In this document: positions 34,593 to 44,070 of the stretch, in pieces
Numbering within the stretch: position 1 is the stretch's first letter
Layout of the letters: each line of letters opens with the position of its first letter
Assembly: GCF_003318235.1 (NCBI RefSeq)
Contig: NZ_QOCG01000032.1
Coordinates: 62,001 to 126,000, forward strand
DNA: 64,000 bases
Source of the DNA: Loktanella sp. D2R18
GTDB lineage: Bacteria; Pseudomonadota; Alphaproteobacteria; Rhodobacterales; Rhodobacteraceae
Direction: 5' to 3'
The notes under the pieces: model-generated
Told to the model about the DNA's origin: nothing
Seen by the model: the letters and a program-made list of their open reading frames with translations, nothing else
Database searches by the model: none
Made by a program: the position numbers and the translations under genes

Positions 34593-35736
34593 AGACTGGG
34601 AACACGGCGGCTTTGGCCTTTATATCCATTGGCCTTTTTGTCAGGCCAAATGCCCCTACTGCGACTTCAACAGCCACGTCGTCGCAAAAATTGATCAAAC
34701 GGCGTGGCGCGATGCTTACCTAAGCGAGATTGATCGGATTGGTGCCGAGACCCAAGGACGGATATTAAAATCTGTGTTTTTTGGTGGCGGCACACCTAGC
34801 ATGATGGATCCTGATCTGGTCGATGCGGTCCTGACAAAGGTACGCGCAACATGGTCAATGGCGAATGATATCGAAATTACACTTGAGGCGAATCCAACGT
34901 CAGTCGAAGCCGGACGCTTTGCTGGATACCGAGACGCGGGCGTTAACCGTGTTTCTATGGGAATTCAGGCATTAAATGACAAAGATTTGCGTGCCCTAGG
35001 TCGCCTTCACACCGCTCAGGAGGCGCTGACGGCCTTCAACACGGCCAGAGAGACGTTTGATCGGGTAAGTTTTGACCTCATTTACGCCCGTCAGGGGCAA
35101 AACTTAGCAGATTGGCGGGCTGAATTGACCCAAGCCTTGGGCTTAGCAATTGATCACCTGTCACTTTACCAGCTGACAATCGAAGATGGCACTGCATTTG
35201 GTGACCGTTATGCCGCCGGAAAACTACGTGGATTGCCCGATGATGACTTGGCAGCCGATATGTATGCTCTGACGCAGGACATATGCGCCGCGGCCAGTTT
35301 TGACAGTTACGAAGTTTCAAACCATGCGCGACCTGGCTTTGAAAGTGTCCACAATCAAATCTATTGGCGCTATGGCGATTATGCAGGGATTGGACCCGGC
35401 GCGCATGGTCGGTTGACGCTAGGAGGAAACCGATACGCGACAGAGGCACCGTCAGCGCCAACGCAATGGTTGGCGCAGGTCAGAAAGACAGGAAATGGCG
35501 ATAGTTTGCGTAGCAAGTTATCAACGGAAGATCAGCGGTCCGAGCTGTTGCTTATGGGTATGCGGTTGCGCGAAGGTGTATTAGTCGAACGGATCGGAAT
35601 ATCAAAAAATATTAAACACAATATCAATAACTTAACCGATATGGGAATGGTGAAAACACATGCGGATCGCCTCGTGTTAACGGCAAAAGGCCGCCCTATC
35701 CTAAACGCAGTCTTACGCGAACTTCTTGCGGATTAG
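34585..35736 (+). CDS. hemW: Radical SAM heme chaperone HemW
   Basis: A 383-residue HemN-like radical SAM protein. The iron-sulfur motif is FCQAKCPYC (CxxxCxxC), followed by VFFGGGTPSMM and VNRVSMGIQALNDKDL, typical of HemW, which delivers heme to apoproteins rather than oxidising coproporphyrinogen. A true HemN would have extra motifs absent here. The likely start is TTG at 34585, inside the rdgB 3' end. Its stop interlocks with that of parB. Confidence 0.9.
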   Translation: MPEDWEHGGFGLYIHWPFCQAKCPYCDFNSHVVAKIDQTAWRDAYLSEIDRIGAETQGRILKSVFFGGGTPSMMDPDLVDAVLTKVRATWSMANDIEITLEANPTSVEAGRFAGYRDAGVNRVSMGIQALNDKDLRALGRLHTAQEALTAFNTARETFDRVSFDLIYARQGQNLADWRAELTQALGLAIDHLSLYQLTIEDGTAFGDRYAAGKLRGLPDDDLAADMYALTQDICAAASFDSYEVSNHARPGFESVHNQIYWRYGDYAGIGPGAHGRLTLGGNRYATEAPSAPTQWLAQVRKTGNGDSLRSKLSTEDQRSELLLMGMRLREGVLVERIGISKNIKHNINNLTDMGMVKTHADRLVLTAKGRPILNAVLRELLAD

Positions 35737-36620
35737 CCACCCGATAAAGCGCGCAAAAGATCATCAAGCTGATCAAGAGATTTATAACTAATCGCGAGTT
35801 TGCCACCCTCTTCGCCAGGCTTATGATCAATCGTTACTTTCATCCGCAATGCAGCTGTGAGCTCATTTTCGATTTGCACTGTGTCTGCATCTTTTGCAAC
35901 AGGCGCACCGGTGGCCGAACGCCGTTTGATCGCCGGGCCCTGCTTGACCAACTTTTCGGTTTCCCGCACTGACAGATTACGCTGAATCACTTCGCGGGCC
36001 ATTTCTTTTGCACGCTCGTTCCCAACCAATGCACGTGCATGACCTGCGGATAACTGGCCCTCCACGAGATAGGTTTGAACCTCGTCTGGCAAGTTCAATA
36101 AACGTAAAAGGTTGGCAATATGACTGCGGCTTTTACCCAATGCGGTGGCAAGCTGTTCTTGCGTATGGCCGAAGCGATCCATCAATTGACGATACCCGGC
36201 AGCCTCATCCACAGCATTCAGATCGTCGCGTTGAATGTTTTCTATAATTGCGACTTCAAGGACTTCGGTATCCGTATATTCACGTAAAAGAACAGGGATT
36301 TCATGCAGTTTTGCCATCTGCGCAGCGCGCCAGCGCCGCTCACCCGCGACAATTTCGTAGGTGCTGGGATTATTGGGCGATACCCGTACGATAAGTGGCT
36401 GAATAATACCCTTTTCAGCAATCGACGACGCCAGATCATTGAGTGCATCATCCCGGAACGTGCGGCGGGGCTGATCGGGATTAGGGATAATATGTTCGAC
36501 CGGAATGAGTAGGTCCGGGCGGCGCGGGCTATCAATTGAGGTATCATCCTGCCCGACATCGGACATCAGCGCTGACAGGCCACGCCCTAAACCGCGTGAT
36601 TTCTTTGCATTTCCTGCCAT
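35733..36620 (-). CDS. parB: Chromosome partition protein ParB
   Basis: A CTP-dependent clamp that loads at parS and spreads. The 295-residue protein has the N-terminal RGLGRGLSALM (ParA-interacting), PNPDQPRRTF, the CTP-binding GERRWRAAQ box and the helix-turn-helix GKSRSHIANLLRLLNLP; the C-terminal dimerisation segment ends the protein. Two parS sites lie 1.4-3.3 kb upstream in rsmG and mnmG. It follows parA by 3 bp. Confidence 0.95.
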   Translation of the reverse strand: MAGNAKKSRGLGRGLSALMSDVGQDDTSIDSPRRPDLLIPVEHIIPNPDQPRRTFRDDALNDLASSIAEKGIIQPLIVRVSPNNPSTYEIVAGERRWRAAQMAKLHEIPVLLREYTDTEVLEVAIIENIQRDDLNAVDEAAGYRQLMDRFGHTQEQLATALGKSRSHIANLLRLLNLPDEVQTYLVEGQLSAGHARALVGNERAKEMAREVIQRNLSVRETEKLVKQGPAIKRRSATGAPVAKDADTVQIENELTAALRMKVTIDHKPGEEGGKLAISYKSLDQLDDLLRALSGG

Positions 36621-36623
36621 TAT

Positions 36624-37421
36624 TTATGCCCTCTTTTTTGTATTTTTTTGAATGACTTCACGCGCCAGCGCACGATAGGCGATAGCGCCTTTTGAGGTCC
36701 CATCATATTCCAAAACCGGCATTGCAAACGACGGCGCTTCGCTTAGTCGAACGTTGCGTGGGATTACCGTTTTGAAAACCATATCGCCCATATTTTCGCG
36801 GGCATCGTCTTCAACTTGGATCGAAAGATTATTACGGCTGTCATACATTGTCAGAACAATGCCTTCGATGCGTAAATCTGGATTCGCAGACTGGCGAACA
36901 TCACGCACAGTTAGGATAAGCTGCGACAGGCCTTCGAGCGCAAAGAACTCACTTTGCAGTGGCACCAATATGGAATCCGCAGCCACCATCGCGTTTACAG
37001 TCAATATGTTGAGAGATGGTGGGCAATCTATCAATATATAGTCATATTTTGCGACAGATTGCGATGCCTCTTGCAGCACGTACCGTAGTAAAAAACTACG
37101 CTTTTCGTTATCCATCAGCTCAATATCGGCAGAGCTAAGATCGGTCGTTGCCGGAATGATGGAAAGGTTTTTAATTGAGGTTGCGCCCGCTGCCTCTTCC
37201 ATAGTCGCATCGCCAGACAACAGGTCATATGTTGTGATACCACGCTGATCATGCTCAATACCCAGTCCAGTTGACGCGTTCCCCTGCGGATCAAGATCAA
37301 TCAAAAGGACTTTTTTCTTTTTTTCGGCCAATGCTGCGCCCAAATTGATCGTCGTCGTCGTTTTGCCGACTCCGCCTTTTTGGTTCGCGATCGCGATAAT
37401 TTTGCAGCTATTCACTGACAC
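36624..37421 (-). CDS. parA: Chromosome partition ATPase ParA
   Basis: A 265-residue Walker-type ATPase (NQKGGVGKTTT near residue 18; DLDPQGNASTGLG; DCPPSLNILTVNAM) that moves ParB-parS complexes. The open frame extends to 37454, but the likely start is GTG at 37421 (VSVNSCKIIAIAN), with AAGGG upstream; a further GTG at 37415 is possible. It overlaps the 3' end of rsmG by about 14 bp, so it is in one operon with rsmG and parB. Confidence 0.94.
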   Translation of the reverse strand: MSVNSCKIIAIANQKGGVGKTTTTINLGAALAEKKKKVLLIDLDPQGNASTGLGIEHDQRGITTYDLLSGDATMEEAAGATSIKNLSIIPATTDLSSADIELMDNEKRSFLLRYVLQEASQSVAKYDYILIDCPPSLNILTVNAMVAADSILVPLQSEFFALEGLSQLILTVRDVRQSANPDLRIEGIVLTMYDSRNNLSIQVEDDARENMGDMVFKTVIPRNVRLSEAPSFAMPVLEYDGTSKGAIAYRALAREVIQKNTKKRA

Positions 37422-38028
37422 GGGATATCCCTTTGACGATAAGAATTTGAGCATCAGGATCGGTCAAACTAGGCGAGTCTTCAAGCGCAAAGCGCCAGTT
37501 ATTCGCAGCATCGGCAACTTCTTCCCTCGCTCTTTTTCCCTTGTGAAGAATCGCTTGTCCGTCGGGTTTTAGGTGGCGTTCAACAAATGGTAGCAGCGTA
37601 GATAAGGTAGAAAGCGCACGCGCAGATACTATATCTGCATTTTGAGGGGCTGCATTTTCAATACGTTCAGCAAGTACTTTTGCGGGTAGGTCCAGCTCTC
37701 TGATGGCTGAGCGCAAAAATGTTGCTTTACGCTGGTCGCTTTCGATTAGGATAAACATTGCATTTGGTTGAGCAACTTTGCCTATTATTGCGACGACAAT
37801 ACCAGGAAACCCACCACCACTGCCTATATCGACCCATTTGTTAAATATTTTTGGCGCTGACGCATATATCTGTGCAGAATCAACGATATGTCGCTCCCAC
37901 AGTGAACTTACGGTGCTCGGTGATATAAGGTTAATCTTGGTAGTCCACTTTTGAACAAGTTCCGAAAACCTGTGCAAGTCATCAAGTGTTTCACGTGAAA
38001 CATTAACTCCCCCGACGTCATGTCCCAT
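37408..38028 (-). CDS. rsmG: 16S rRNA m7G527 methyltransferase RsmG
   Basis: A 206-residue rRNA methyltransferase (formerly GidB). SAM motif I is DIGSGGGFPGIV, with the ERHIVDS and ADIVSARAL blocks seen in the family. Residues 9-14 (NVSRET) are encoded by a complete parS site. One base separates it from mnmG, and parA overlaps its end. Confidence 0.95.
   Translation of the reverse strand: MGHDVGGVNVSRETLDDLHRFSELVQKWTTKINLISPSTVSSLWERHIVDSAQIYASAPKIFNKWVDIGSGGGFPGIVVAIIGKVAQPNAMFILIESDQRKATFLRSAIRELDLPAKVLAERIENAAPQNADIVSARALSTLSTLLPFVERHLKPDGQAILHKGKRAREEVADAANNWRFALEDSPSLTDPDAQILIVKGISRVSE
37987..38002. promoter_or_regulatory. parS partition site 1 (in rsmG)
   Basis: TGTTTCACGTGAAACA, a perfect 16-bp palindrome identical to the canonical bacterial parS core, lying within codons 9-14 of rsmG. 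ParB binds here. About 5.1 kb from the putative origin. Confidence 0.93.
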
Positions 38029-38029
38029 T

Positions 38030-39910
38030 CTAGCTACCTGTCTTTGCTTTATGATTGCGCTTTAACATCGCAACGATGAGCATAAGCGCCGCTGGAGTCA
38101 TCCCTTCAATGCGACCCGCTTGCGCAATATCGTCCGGCCGAATGGTTTCAAGCTTACTTACAAGCTCATTTGAAAGCCCATTAACCGCGCGGTAATTGAT
38201 CTCAGCTGGAATAATCTGCTTTTCATCGCGCTCCATCGCAGCAACGTCTGACTGCTGGCGTTGCACATAATGTGCATACAGTGCGTCCTTTTTGATCTGA
38301 TCTCGAACATCAGTAGAAATATCTGATAATTCGGGTACAAGACGGGTCAACTGCGGAAAATCAAAATCGGTCAGTGCCAGCGCTTCAAGCGCTGAACGGC
38401 GCGGCCCGTCGACGTTCAAGTTTGCGCCTTGGGATGCAATATCCCGTGATGATAGAAAAATAGTTGACAGCGATGATTGCGCAGCAGAGATTTTGTCCAT
38501 CTTATCCGAAAACTGCGCCCATCGCTCATTACCCACACATCCAATTGTATGCCCAAGCTCCGTTAACCTTTGATCCGCGTTATCTGCCCGCAGGGATAGT
38601 CTGAATTCTGCCCGAGAAGTAAACATCCGGTATGGCTCTGAAACACCTTTTGTAATCAGGTCATCGATCATTACGCCAATATAAGAATGGCGGCGACTGA
38701 ATTTGATCGGTTGCGCACCCTTAGAATGCGCAGCAGCATTCAAGCCAGCGACAAGCCCCTGCGCCGCCGCTTCTTCATAACCAGTTGTACCATTTATTTG
38801 ACCGGCGAGATAAAGCCCCGGCACATCCCGCAGTTCTAACGTTGACGTAAGCGATCTAGGGTCCACATAATCATATTCAATCGCATATCCTGGTTGCAAT
38901 ATCTTAGCATTTTCAAGGCCATAGATAGAATTCACGTAGTCCCATTGTATCTCTTCTGGAAGCGATGTGGAAATGCCGTTCGGATAAACCGTATCATCAT
39001 TTACACCCTCTGGTTCCAGAAATATCTGATGCGACGTCTTATCAGAAAACCGCACAACCTTATCTTCAATTGAAGGGCAATATCGCGGACCTACACCATC
39101 GATGTGCCCCCCATACATAGCCGACCGGTCAAGGTTCGCGCGAATGATGTCATGGGTCCGTTCATTTGTATGCGTTATCCCGCAATCAATTTGGGGCGCA
39201 AAAACGGCGCTGGACATAAACGAAAACATCGTCGGATCCGCATCACTTGGTTGTGCTTCCAGCAAATCCCAGCGAATTGTGCGCCCATCTAGTCTTGGTG
39301 GAGTGCCTGTCTTTAGTCGCCCAAGCCTCAGTTCAAAACTGTCTAGCCTTTCCGCCATTTTGACAGATGGTTTGTCACCCATACGGCCGCCAGGACGTGA
39401 GACCTCTCCAATATGAATAACGCCGCGCAAAAATGTACCAGTCGTTAAGATCACACTATTTGCTGATAGCTGTGTATCCCCCGCCATAACAACGCCCGCA
39501 ACGCGGCCGCTTTTCATAATGAGATCGACCGCCTCTCCCTCAACGATTTTGAGGTTCTCTACTACATCTAGCTCAGCTTGCATCGTAGTGCGGTATATTT
39601 CGCGGTCTGCCTGCGCCCGCGGGCCTTGTACAGCAGGCCCCTTTTTGCGGTTTAGCAGTCTAAACTGAATGCCCGCCCGATCTGCGACACGCGCCATGAC
39701 ACCATCTAGTGCATCAATCTCGCGTACGAGGTGTCCTTTACCAAGTCCGCCAATTGCCGGATTGCAGGACATTACGCCAATAGATTGCTTCGTAAGAGTC
39801 ACCAGAGCCGTGCGCGCACCCATTCGTGCGGATGCATGGGCAGCTTCGGCGCCCGCATGTCCACCACCAATTACGATCACGTCGAAGTCACAATGTTTCA
39901 CGTGAAACAC
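38030..39910 (-). CDS. mnmG: tRNA uridine-5-carboxymethylaminomethyl modification enzyme MnmG
   Basis: FAD-dependent partner of MnmE that modifies U34 of tRNAs. The 626-residue protein has the FAD site [40 protein letters not shown] and later [16 protein letters not shown]. The start MFHVKH is a parS sequence read as protein; the same N-terminus recurs in other bacteria. Two bases from mnmE. Confidence 0.96.
39894..39909. promoter_or_regulatory. parS partition site 2 (at the mnmG start)
   Basis: TGTTTCACGTGAAACA, a second perfect copy, beginning at the second base of the mnmG ATG so that it encodes the first six residues MFHVKH. It is read in another frame than the rsmG copy. About 3.2 kb from the putative origin. 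Confidence 0.93.
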
Positions 39911-42614: not shown

Positions 42615-43064
42615 CTAAAACGGCCTTACAACGACCGCCACCACGATAATCACCATCAGTACTGTCGGGACCTCATTAGCAAGCCTGTAAACCCGCCCAG
42701 AGCGCGTATTCACCCCAGCAACAAACTCTTTACGGCGCTTACTCAACCAGCCGTGAAACCCGCTCATAAGCAGCACAGCAATAATCTTCGACCATGACCA
42801 AACAGATCCCCAATCAAAAGCGCCCATCGACAACATGATCAACCCAGCTACCCATGTGACTATCATCGCAGGATTAATAATGACGCGTAGCAGTTTCTCT
42901 TCCATAATTTGAAATGTTAGATCCAGATCTGATCCAACTTCTGCCCGTTCTGCATGATATACAAATAGTCGCGGTAGATAAAACATCCCGGCCATCCATG
43001 AAATCACAGCCATGATATGGATCGCTTTGATCCAATCATAATACACACTTAGAAAATCGAGCAT
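42615..43064 (-). CDS. hemJ: Protoporphyrinogen oxidase HemJ
   Basis: A 149-residue membrane protein with four helices and the conserved AIHIMAVISWMAGMFYLPRLFVYH near the start (heme-binding His). HemJ oxidises protoporphyrinogen IX, the penultimate heme step, in bacteria lacking HemG and HemY. It is the last leftward gene before the origin region. hemH and hemW are also in the window. Confidence 0.93.
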   Translation of the reverse strand: MLDFLSVYYDWIKAIHIMAVISWMAGMFYLPRLFVYHAERAEVGSDLDLTFQIMEEKLLRVIINPAMIVTWVAGLIMLSMGAFDWGSVWSWSKIIAVLLMSGFHGWLSKRRKEFVAGVNTRSGRVYRLANEVPTVLMVIIVVAVVVRPF

Positions 43065-43471
43065 GTTATCGCCTCACTTTCGGTCAGTCACTCTTAATAA
43101 ATATATAAAGAAAGAAAAGATGATGATGTTGTTAGTACAGCGATTTTTTGTGGTTTGTTTTTTCATCCGCAGACTTATCCCAAGGGAAAACAAGCAGAAA
43201 AAATTTGACTTAAAGGCAGATACTTTAAAATTATCCCATATTTATCAATATTTTATCAGCGATTTGATGATTGCAGATAGGTGCTGACTTCATATTGACA
43301 CTGACTTGAGAGACGATTCTTCCACAGGGTCGACTTATGCTTTCCCGCGGTGGAAAAATCGGCATAACAGGTGGCACAACTCGTGACTTTCGCACAGGCT
43401 TCTGGGTGGTGGTCTTTATCCCTCTGAATGTCCGCAGGCTGACACATCGTTTTTCCAAAGGGTTATCCACA
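43065..43471. other. Putative chromosomal replication origin (oriC)
   Basis: A gap of about 400 bp with no convincing gene. The part 43085-43260 is strikingly AT-rich (for example TTAATAAATATATAAAG and ATTTATCAATATTTTATC), suiting a duplex-unwinding element. A perfect DnaA box TTATCCACA is at 43463-43471, overlapping the maf ATG; weaker ones include TTATCCCAA (43175), TCTTCCACA (43318) and TTATCCCTC (near 43416). The flanking genes and their outward directions, and nearby parAB and parS, match alphaproteobacterial origins. Two short open frames here (74 and 79 codons) look accidental. Confidence 0.8.
43463..43471 (+). promoter_or_regulatory. DnaA box
   Basis: TTATCCACA, exact match to the strong DnaA-binding consensus, whose last base is the A of the maf start codon. 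DnaA bound here could both serve the origin and affect maf expression. Confidence 0.75.
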
Positions 43472-44070
43472 TGACCACCCCGATTATTTTGGCTTCTGGT
43501 TCTGAAATTCGCGCGACCTTGCTACGCAATGCAGCCGTGCCATTCTCCGTCGCCAAAGCGCGCATCGACGAAGATATGATCCGTCAATCGCTGACCGCCG
43601 AAGAAGCGTCACCGCGTGATATTGCCGATACTCTCGCAGAACTCAAAGCACAGCGTGTTGCGTCGAGACACCCAGATGCACTTGTCATCGGCTGTGATCA
43701 AATTTTGGCGAAGGGTCGCACAGTATTCTCGAAACCCGAAACACCGGCTCAGGCGTTCGAACAACTGCAATCGCTGCGCGGCGATAAACACCAATTACTC
43801 TCAGCGGCGGTCATTTACGGCGAAGGCAAGCCGCTCTGGCGTCATGTCGGCTCTGTTCGGCTGCAAATGCGTGACGCAAGCGACACATATCTGCAGGATT
43901 ATGTCGATCGGAACTGGGAAAGCATCCGCCACAGTGTTGGAGCCTATAAGCTCGAAGAGGAAGGCGTGCGATTGTTCACACGCATTGACGGGGATTATTT
44001 CAACGTGCTGGGGCTGCCACTTTTGGAACTACTATCATATCTGACGTTACGCGGGGATTTGCCCTCATGA
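43471..44070 (+). CDS. maf: Maf-like nucleoside triphosphate pyrophosphatase
   Basis: A 199-residue Maf/YceF-type house-cleaning pyrophosphatase of non-canonical or UTP/dTTP nucleotides. LASGSEIRATLLRNAAVPF at the start, IGCDQILAKG with the catalytic Asp in the middle and SVGAYKLEEEGV toward the end are family features. First rightward gene after the putative origin; overlaps aroE by 4 bp. Confidence 0.93.
   Translation: MTTPIILASGSEIRATLLRNAAVPFSVAKARIDEDMIRQSLTAEEASPRDIADTLAELKAQRVASRHPDALVIGCDQILAKGRTVFSKPETPAQAFEQLQSLRGDKHQLLSAAVIYGEGKPLWRHVGSVRLQMRDASDTYLQDYVDRNWESIRHSVGAYKLEEEGVRLFTRIDGDYFNVLGLPLLELLSYLTLRGDLPS

Follow-up and report, generated by a model that had tools for sequence, protein, structure and literature searches.

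Where does replication of the main chromosome begin in Loktanella sp. D2R18, and is the short gene-free stretch between hemJ and maf the place? A sequence-only reading of this locus had put a probable chromosome origin there. The window analysed here is a stretch of 64,000 nucleotides (positions 62001-126000 of contig C4) from a draft genome of 3.65 Mb in 33 contigs; among the matches listed, the closest named relative by maf is Yoonia sp. I 8.24, with 96% identity. The proposal is supported: the skew minimum, genome-wide searches for parS and perfect DnaA boxes, duplex stability, phylogenetic footprinting and, to differing degrees, the chromosomes of relatives all indicate this gap. Judged from these sequence data, the hemJ-maf gap is very probably the DnaA-dependent origin of the main chromosome in this marine, Yoonia-type member of the Rhodobacteraceae.

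Gene order, GC skew and partition sites around the gap

The genes parB, parA, rsmG, mnmG, mnmE, rho and hemJ follow one another on the minus strand to the left of the gap, while maf, aroE, coaE and a gene for an RNase_T-type exonuclease (dnaQ-like) lie on the plus strand to its right, followed by secB on the minus strand. The region between the outward-facing hemJ and maf is indeed gene-free, no gene being called in its 406 bp, and its presumed AT-richness holds as well: with the box at the maf end included it contains 59.7% AT, a value matched by 0.14% of 2196 overlapping 407-bp segments of the contig (about three segments, the hemJ-maf region itself counted). No RNA family reached its gathering score anywhere in the 64-kb window. 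The coordinates of all features are collected in Table 1.

Table 1. Features of the hemJ-maf gap and of the neighbouring partition locus, in positions of the window.
Feature	Position	Strand	Remarks
Probable chromosomal oriC, hemJ-maf gap, 406 bp	43065..43470	.	Skew minimum and change point, least stable DNA, conserved DnaA-box array, parS nearby
hemJ, left flank	42615..43064	-	TIGR00701, 156.1 bits (cut-off 138.05)
maf, right flank	43471..44070	+	TIGR00172, 127.3 bits (cut-off 117.15)
Conserved AT-rich / GATGATG element, hemJ side	43092..43137	.	29/46 columns at least 90% identical in 30 Yoonia-set rows
Weak DnaA box TCATCCGCA	43163..43171	+	≤2 mismatches in 28/28 scorable Yoonia-set rows (30 in total)
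Weak DnaA box TTATCCCAA	43175..43183	+	≤2 mismatches in 27/30 Yoonia-set rows
Predicted duplex-unwinding element, sequence largely unconserved	43196..43295	.	Least stable 100 bp of the window by nearest-neighbour stability
IHF-consensus match, weak	43243..43255	+	Within the unstable stretch; one of five plus-strand matches in 64 kb
GATTC (GANTC site) overlapping weak DnaA box TCTTCCACA	43315..43326	+	GANTC in 28/30 Yoonia-set rows
Weak DnaA box TCTTCCACA	43318..43326	+	≤2 mismatches in 29/30 Yoonia-set rows
Weak DnaA box TTTTCCACC	43349..43357	-	≤2 mismatches in 26/30 Yoonia-set rows
Very weak DnaA-like site TTTTCCAAA	43451..43459	+	≤2 mismatches in 14/30, ≤3 in 27/30 Yoonia-set rows
Perfect DnaA box TTATCCACA	43463..43471	+	Overlaps first base of maf start codon; preceded by SD-like AAAGGG
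parB	35733..36620	-	TIGR00180, 196.2 bits (cut-off 58.45)
parA	36624..37454	-	ParA-type ATPase, E 3.5e-31 to NF041546, below its cut-off; adjoins parB
parS, inside rsmG	37987..38002	.	Perfect 16-mer, one of two in the draft genome
parS, directly after first base of mnmG GTG start	39894..39909	.	Perfect 16-mer

Best-matching loci of relatives, and not all relatives, were drawn from a hemJ search of family genomes (75 of 80 matched, 30 of these used), from maf matches (80 of 371 used), from genomes of the genus (54 of 56 matched, 30 loci used) and from genomes of the class (170 of 190 matched, the best 30 used). The 142 loci scanned include two from the dnaA search, as well as L052 and L105, in which hemJ had no match; in one of these two, maf lies at the extreme end of the locus. 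A divergent hemJ-maf gap of less than 3 kb is present in 138 of the 140 best-match loci, and 105 of the 117 distinct gaps measure 395-415 bp, many of the 117 being from Ruegeria, with some genomes possibly represented twice, and not standing for independent events. Alignments were made of 110 distinct sequences with gaps of 380-450 bp, taken from the 138 loci. The Yoonia set consists of 30 hand-picked rows, including some labelled only as Rhodobacteraceae, and the family set of 76 rows; the sequence studied here is in both, L108-L111 and L120 were excluded from both, and rows gapped inside a DnaA box were set aside for that box.

On its own contig, one of 33 in a draft in which contig order is not set, cumulative GC skew, computed over 220 of 223.8 kb, declines as far as window position 43802 (C4:105802), 0.3 kb inside maf, and rises thereafter; a minimum elsewhere on the contig was looked for and not found. 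Per kb, G minus C averages -29.0 (s.e. 3.0) on the left side and +14.6 (s.e. 3.0) on the right side, and the change point is located at kb 105 of the contig (bootstrap 96-115), a result reached by none of 2000 block permutations. The skew of the relatives agrees with the gap to 1.6-33 kb. In the single-contig relative G003, seven consecutive samples between 1.67 and 3.05 Mb are negative and five between 0.05 and 0.75 Mb are positive, samples of unexpected sign being those at 0, 0.98 and 3.28 Mb, and around hemJ, where 40 kb were read, the minimum is found at 3475899, 1.6 kb from the gap. Two genomes of the same genus have their minimum 23 kb from maf (G080, 400 kb read, with several coarse samples of unexpected sign) and 33 kb from maf (G134, 180 kb read, with one positive sample at 3.1 Mb). 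In G055 the 40 kb read at the gap contain no local minimum, and several samples have an unexpected sign; its coarse samples switch sign at 90-105 kb, which is 18-33 kb from the gap. These offsets and stray signs weigh against the origin call.

The parAB genes and parS sites had been noted a few kb away, and this is so: parB and parA occupy 35733-37454, and the parS sites are 3.2 and 5.1 kb from the gap. These are the only two perfect parS sites in the draft genome, both within 5.1 kb of the hemJ-maf gap. The skew of the contig and of the relatives, taken together with the parS pair, therefore makes it very likely that the origin lies in or very near the gap. One earlier statement, that the signals are all independent, does not hold, since gene direction and local GC skew are linked.

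Both parS sites are situated in coding sequence: the mnmG protein begins VFHVKH, and the rsmG site encodes VSRET near the protein start. DNA signals of the origin region are located at gene starts, the parS sites and likewise the DnaA box at maf. Scored over 50 bp, only the origin gap is less stable in the window than positions 35598-35647, which lie near the end of the hemN-like gene next to parB and contain a match to the IHF consensus at 35622.

DnaA boxes and unstable DNA within the gap

The perfect DnaA box reported at the start of maf, TTATCCACA, is located at 43463-43471 and shares its last base with the ATG, its final A being the A of the maf start codon. It is the sole perfect box of the 64-kb window. 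The draft genome contains 17 perfect boxes, all at least 15 kb apart, compared to 18 matches for a reversed control pattern, and a single perfect box is therefore weak proof by itself; that the gap has only one strong box counts against the origin call. Perfect boxes clustered at another site of the draft genome were considered and rejected, as the 17 matches include no cluster. The degenerate boxes are more numerous than chance would give, as had been claimed. Allowing up to two mismatches and including the perfect box, the hemJ-maf region has seven matches, versus a mean of 1.06 in contig segments and of 1.61 in 44 AT-matched segments of the contig, and seven matches are reached by two of 2196 segments, one of which overlaps the gap.

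Four of the six degenerate boxes are conserved in the Yoonia set, and the column of TTATCCACA is perfect in 28 of the 30 rows and has at most one mismatch in all 30. The two-mismatch match at 43242, kept in only two of the 30 rows, is thereby probably due to chance. In the family alignment the weak boxes are mostly out of register, and the box at the maf end stands out most clearly, 63 of 75 scorable rows having one mismatch or none. A minus-strand box-like site at 43148-43156 differs from the box at four or more positions in every one of the 30 Yoonia-set rows, in the register tested; a DnaA-trio was sought by eye beside it, and the GATGATG repeat near 43120 is unlike the DnaA-trio consensus. 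In many Ruegeria loci (L054-L112) a minus-strand box lies at about -189 from maf, with no more than one mismatch and in some cases perfect, and the sequence at maf is mostly TTTTCCACA. In most Yoonia loci the perfect box is at maf, and there is none at -189. The strong DnaA site seems to have changed ends between the Ruegeria and Yoonia loci.

The least stable DNA is found within the hemJ-maf gap in 72 of 74 loci of relatives (those longer than 15 kb, scored over 100 bp), where it starts at a median of 280 bp upstream of maf. In the Yoonia set, conserved blocks (29/46, 26/40, 11/14, 17/34 and 18/28 columns at least 90% identical) alternate with spacers (5/106 and 5/85 columns). The unstable stretch at 43196-43295 is mostly spacer: its instability is retained and its sequence is not. 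The conserved element at 43092-43137 could be part of the unwinding region, the promoter or leader of hemJ, or both.

An exact CtrA site (TTAA-N7-TTAA) is absent from the 64-kb window, and exact sites occur in the gaps of one of 30 Yoonia-set and five of 76 family rows. A one-mismatch form is present inside the gap at 43094; the nine such forms in the window, versus 16 expected, are not above chance. Caulobacter-like CtrA control of the gap was rejected on the lack of an exact site there. The weak IHF match at 43243 has the full consensus in place in seven of 30 Yoonia-set and 13 of 76 family rows and a looser core (CA..TTA) in 22 and 48 rows, respectively, and the full consensus occurs anywhere in the gap in eight and 19 rows, respectively. 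GANTC at the 43315 column, kept in 28 of 30 Yoonia-set rows, is found in three of 76 family rows; it is possibly a genus-level methylation input to the origin.

In many other bacteria the origin is located beside dnaA, and the hemJ-maf gap would then be merely a conserved regulatory region, its boxes no surprise as promoters too contain DnaA boxes. Several complete relatives are numbered from dnaA, with matches starting at base 1 in G003, G055, G034 and G107, which fits such a location; this numbering is probably a habit of annotators. On the dnaA contig (C6) itself, however, the skew declines to the left and right of dnaA alike, with a plateau (25-40 kb) and no turn at the gene; the contig lacks a perfect parS, having a one-mismatch site 37 kb from dnaA. 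In G080, moreover, dnaA lies 300 kb away from maf and close to the skew maximum of the 400 kb that were read. An origin beside dnaA is disfavoured by the skew without a turn there and by the relatives, and we regard it as highly improbable. Divergent genes need promoters, and the gaps between them are often AT-rich, so that boxes and AT-richness might be ordinary features of a plain divergent promoter region. This reading is scarcely credible in view of the near-fixed length of the gap, the position of the most unstable 100 bp, inside the gap in 72 of 74 loci of relatives, the conserved box array, the skew switch and the parS pair; a scan for a sigma-70 promoter of maf was also at chance (two promoter-like matches versus a mean of 1.7 in shuffles).

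The box on the maf start codon and the PPSR gene

In 93 of the 117 distinct gaps, the last base of a box with one mismatch or none is also the first base of the maf start codon; by comparison, 2 of the 2228 ATG triplets of the window carry such a box. SD-like purines are located within eight bases before the fused box in 88 of the 93, and the box therefore occupies the ribosome-binding spacer of maf. Counted by genus, over the 26 PPSR-less genera (29 family loci, L004-L032, minus three with PPSR), exact fusion of box and ATG is found in nine, a box within -40 to +12 in nine more, and no box (at most one mismatch) in eight. No DnaA box on the maf start codon was met with in the titles and abstract openings of the part of the literature covered, and one may be in print elsewhere.

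In 25 of 27 loci from outside the family, maf is preceded on its own strand by a PPSR gene (PF03618, COG1806 type), which lies within 200 bp of maf in 21. Of these 25 loci, two (L260 and L263) are truncated on the PPSR side, and in four the PPSR gene stops 0.2-1.3 kb short of maf instead of adjoining it. Eleven of the 25 carry a DnaA box with no more than one mismatch shortly upstream of PPSR, at varying distance but always within 61 bp of the first codon of PPSR that could be aligned. Within the family, PPSR is kept in six of 80 genomes, each time 0.4-1.5 kb from hemJ. A PF03618 search gave no match in the genome studied here nor in 74 of the 80 family genomes, a figure that includes some genomes less than 90% complete (among complete ones PPSR is present in six of 73).

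From this distribution we infer that a PPSR gene once located between the origin and maf was lost, which would be why the best box now overlaps the maf ATG. Most simply, the box would be part of the border of the origin, to which maf moved up on the loss of PPSR, and this appears likelier than an operator. An operator through which DnaA represses or times maf would link the Maf nucleotide pyrophosphatase to initiation, the box being kept for that and not for the origin alone. The fusion to the start codon in 93 of 117 gaps, the perfect box in 28 of 30 Yoonia-set rows and the SD-like purines in 88 of 93 speak for it; yet exact fusion is found in nine of the 26 genera, with a nearby box in nine and none in eight, 11 of the 25 non-family PPSR loci have a box before PPSR, at varying distance, and the maf promoter scan is at chance level. 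Such an operator is consequently considered unlikely. A more restricted form, in which the box is a true operator in part of the Rhodobacteraceae, arose by PPSR loss and lets DnaA occupancy time or damp the production of the Maf enzyme, would be quite unlikely too.

Known origins and a proposed mode of initiation

A maf-adjacent origin in the Rhodobacteraceae is already in print, and the hemJ-maf gap is another probable case, in a new genome: an oriC adjoining maf is stated to be conserved in the family (PMC4793288, available sections). The oriC of Ketogulonicigenium vulgare, together with DoriC entries cited in that source, has maf directly beside it, as here, and the available sections of the account (PMC4793288) describe neither a box on the maf start codon nor a loss of PPSR. 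Assignment of oriC in the family has relied on Ori-Finder, GC disparity and parAB as a marker, with 8 of 109 strains remaining without a pinpointed oriC, according to the sections available of PMC6699656. For chromosome 1 of Rhodobacter sphaeroides, too, the origin region was placed with the help of cumulative GC skew and by looking for partition loci (PMC6315104, in part).

The origin of Caulobacter crescentus, Cori, is described as located between hemE and CC0001/COG1806, with CtrA, IHF and DnaA sites (PMC1914354, in part), its DnaA boxes being moderate G-boxes and very weak W-boxes (PMC4468827, in part). Like Cori as described in these excerpts, the origin proposed here is AT-rich, has a heme-synthesis gene at its border and carries mostly weak DnaA boxes. 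It differs from Cori in that hemJ is the flank, the only URO-D (hemE family) match of the genome being on contig C32, in that maf flanks the gap and PPSR/COG1806 is absent from the genome, in the lack of an exact TTAA-N7-TTAA site in the gap, and in having one perfect box where the excerpts give moderate and very weak ones. In Caulobacter, maf, aroE, coaE and dnaQ presumably follow CC0001, with parAB on the hemE side.

Skew location, box conservation, instability, the rarity of parS and the absence of PPSR are computed properties of these genomes, and from them we infer DnaA binding and an order of events at the gap. DnaA would occupy the strong box at the maf end and cooperatively fill the weak boxes at 43163, 43175, 43318 and 43349. 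The resulting DnaA filament would open the least stable stretch, at about 43196-43295, after which the helicase would be loaded and the forks would exit past hemJ-rho-mnmE on one side and past maf-aroE-coaE on the other. ParB bound to the two parS sites may help to separate the sister origins. In the history proposed, PPSR was lost in most of the family, and the box at the origin border would thereby have come to fill the stretch from the ribosome-binding site to the start codon of maf.

The analysis provides a base-level map of the origin for the Yoonia/Loktanella group, in which tools that count boxes may struggle, as only one box is perfect. It also provides a footprint for finding origins in draft genomes: a gap usually of about 405 bp, a box on or near the maf start codon, and the least stable DNA beginning about 280 bp upstream of maf. 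Should the operator reading be true, there would be a direct link from initiation to the housekeeping gene maf. The loss of PPSR, finally, offers an explanation for why maf may have become the border of the origin in the Rhodobacteraceae.
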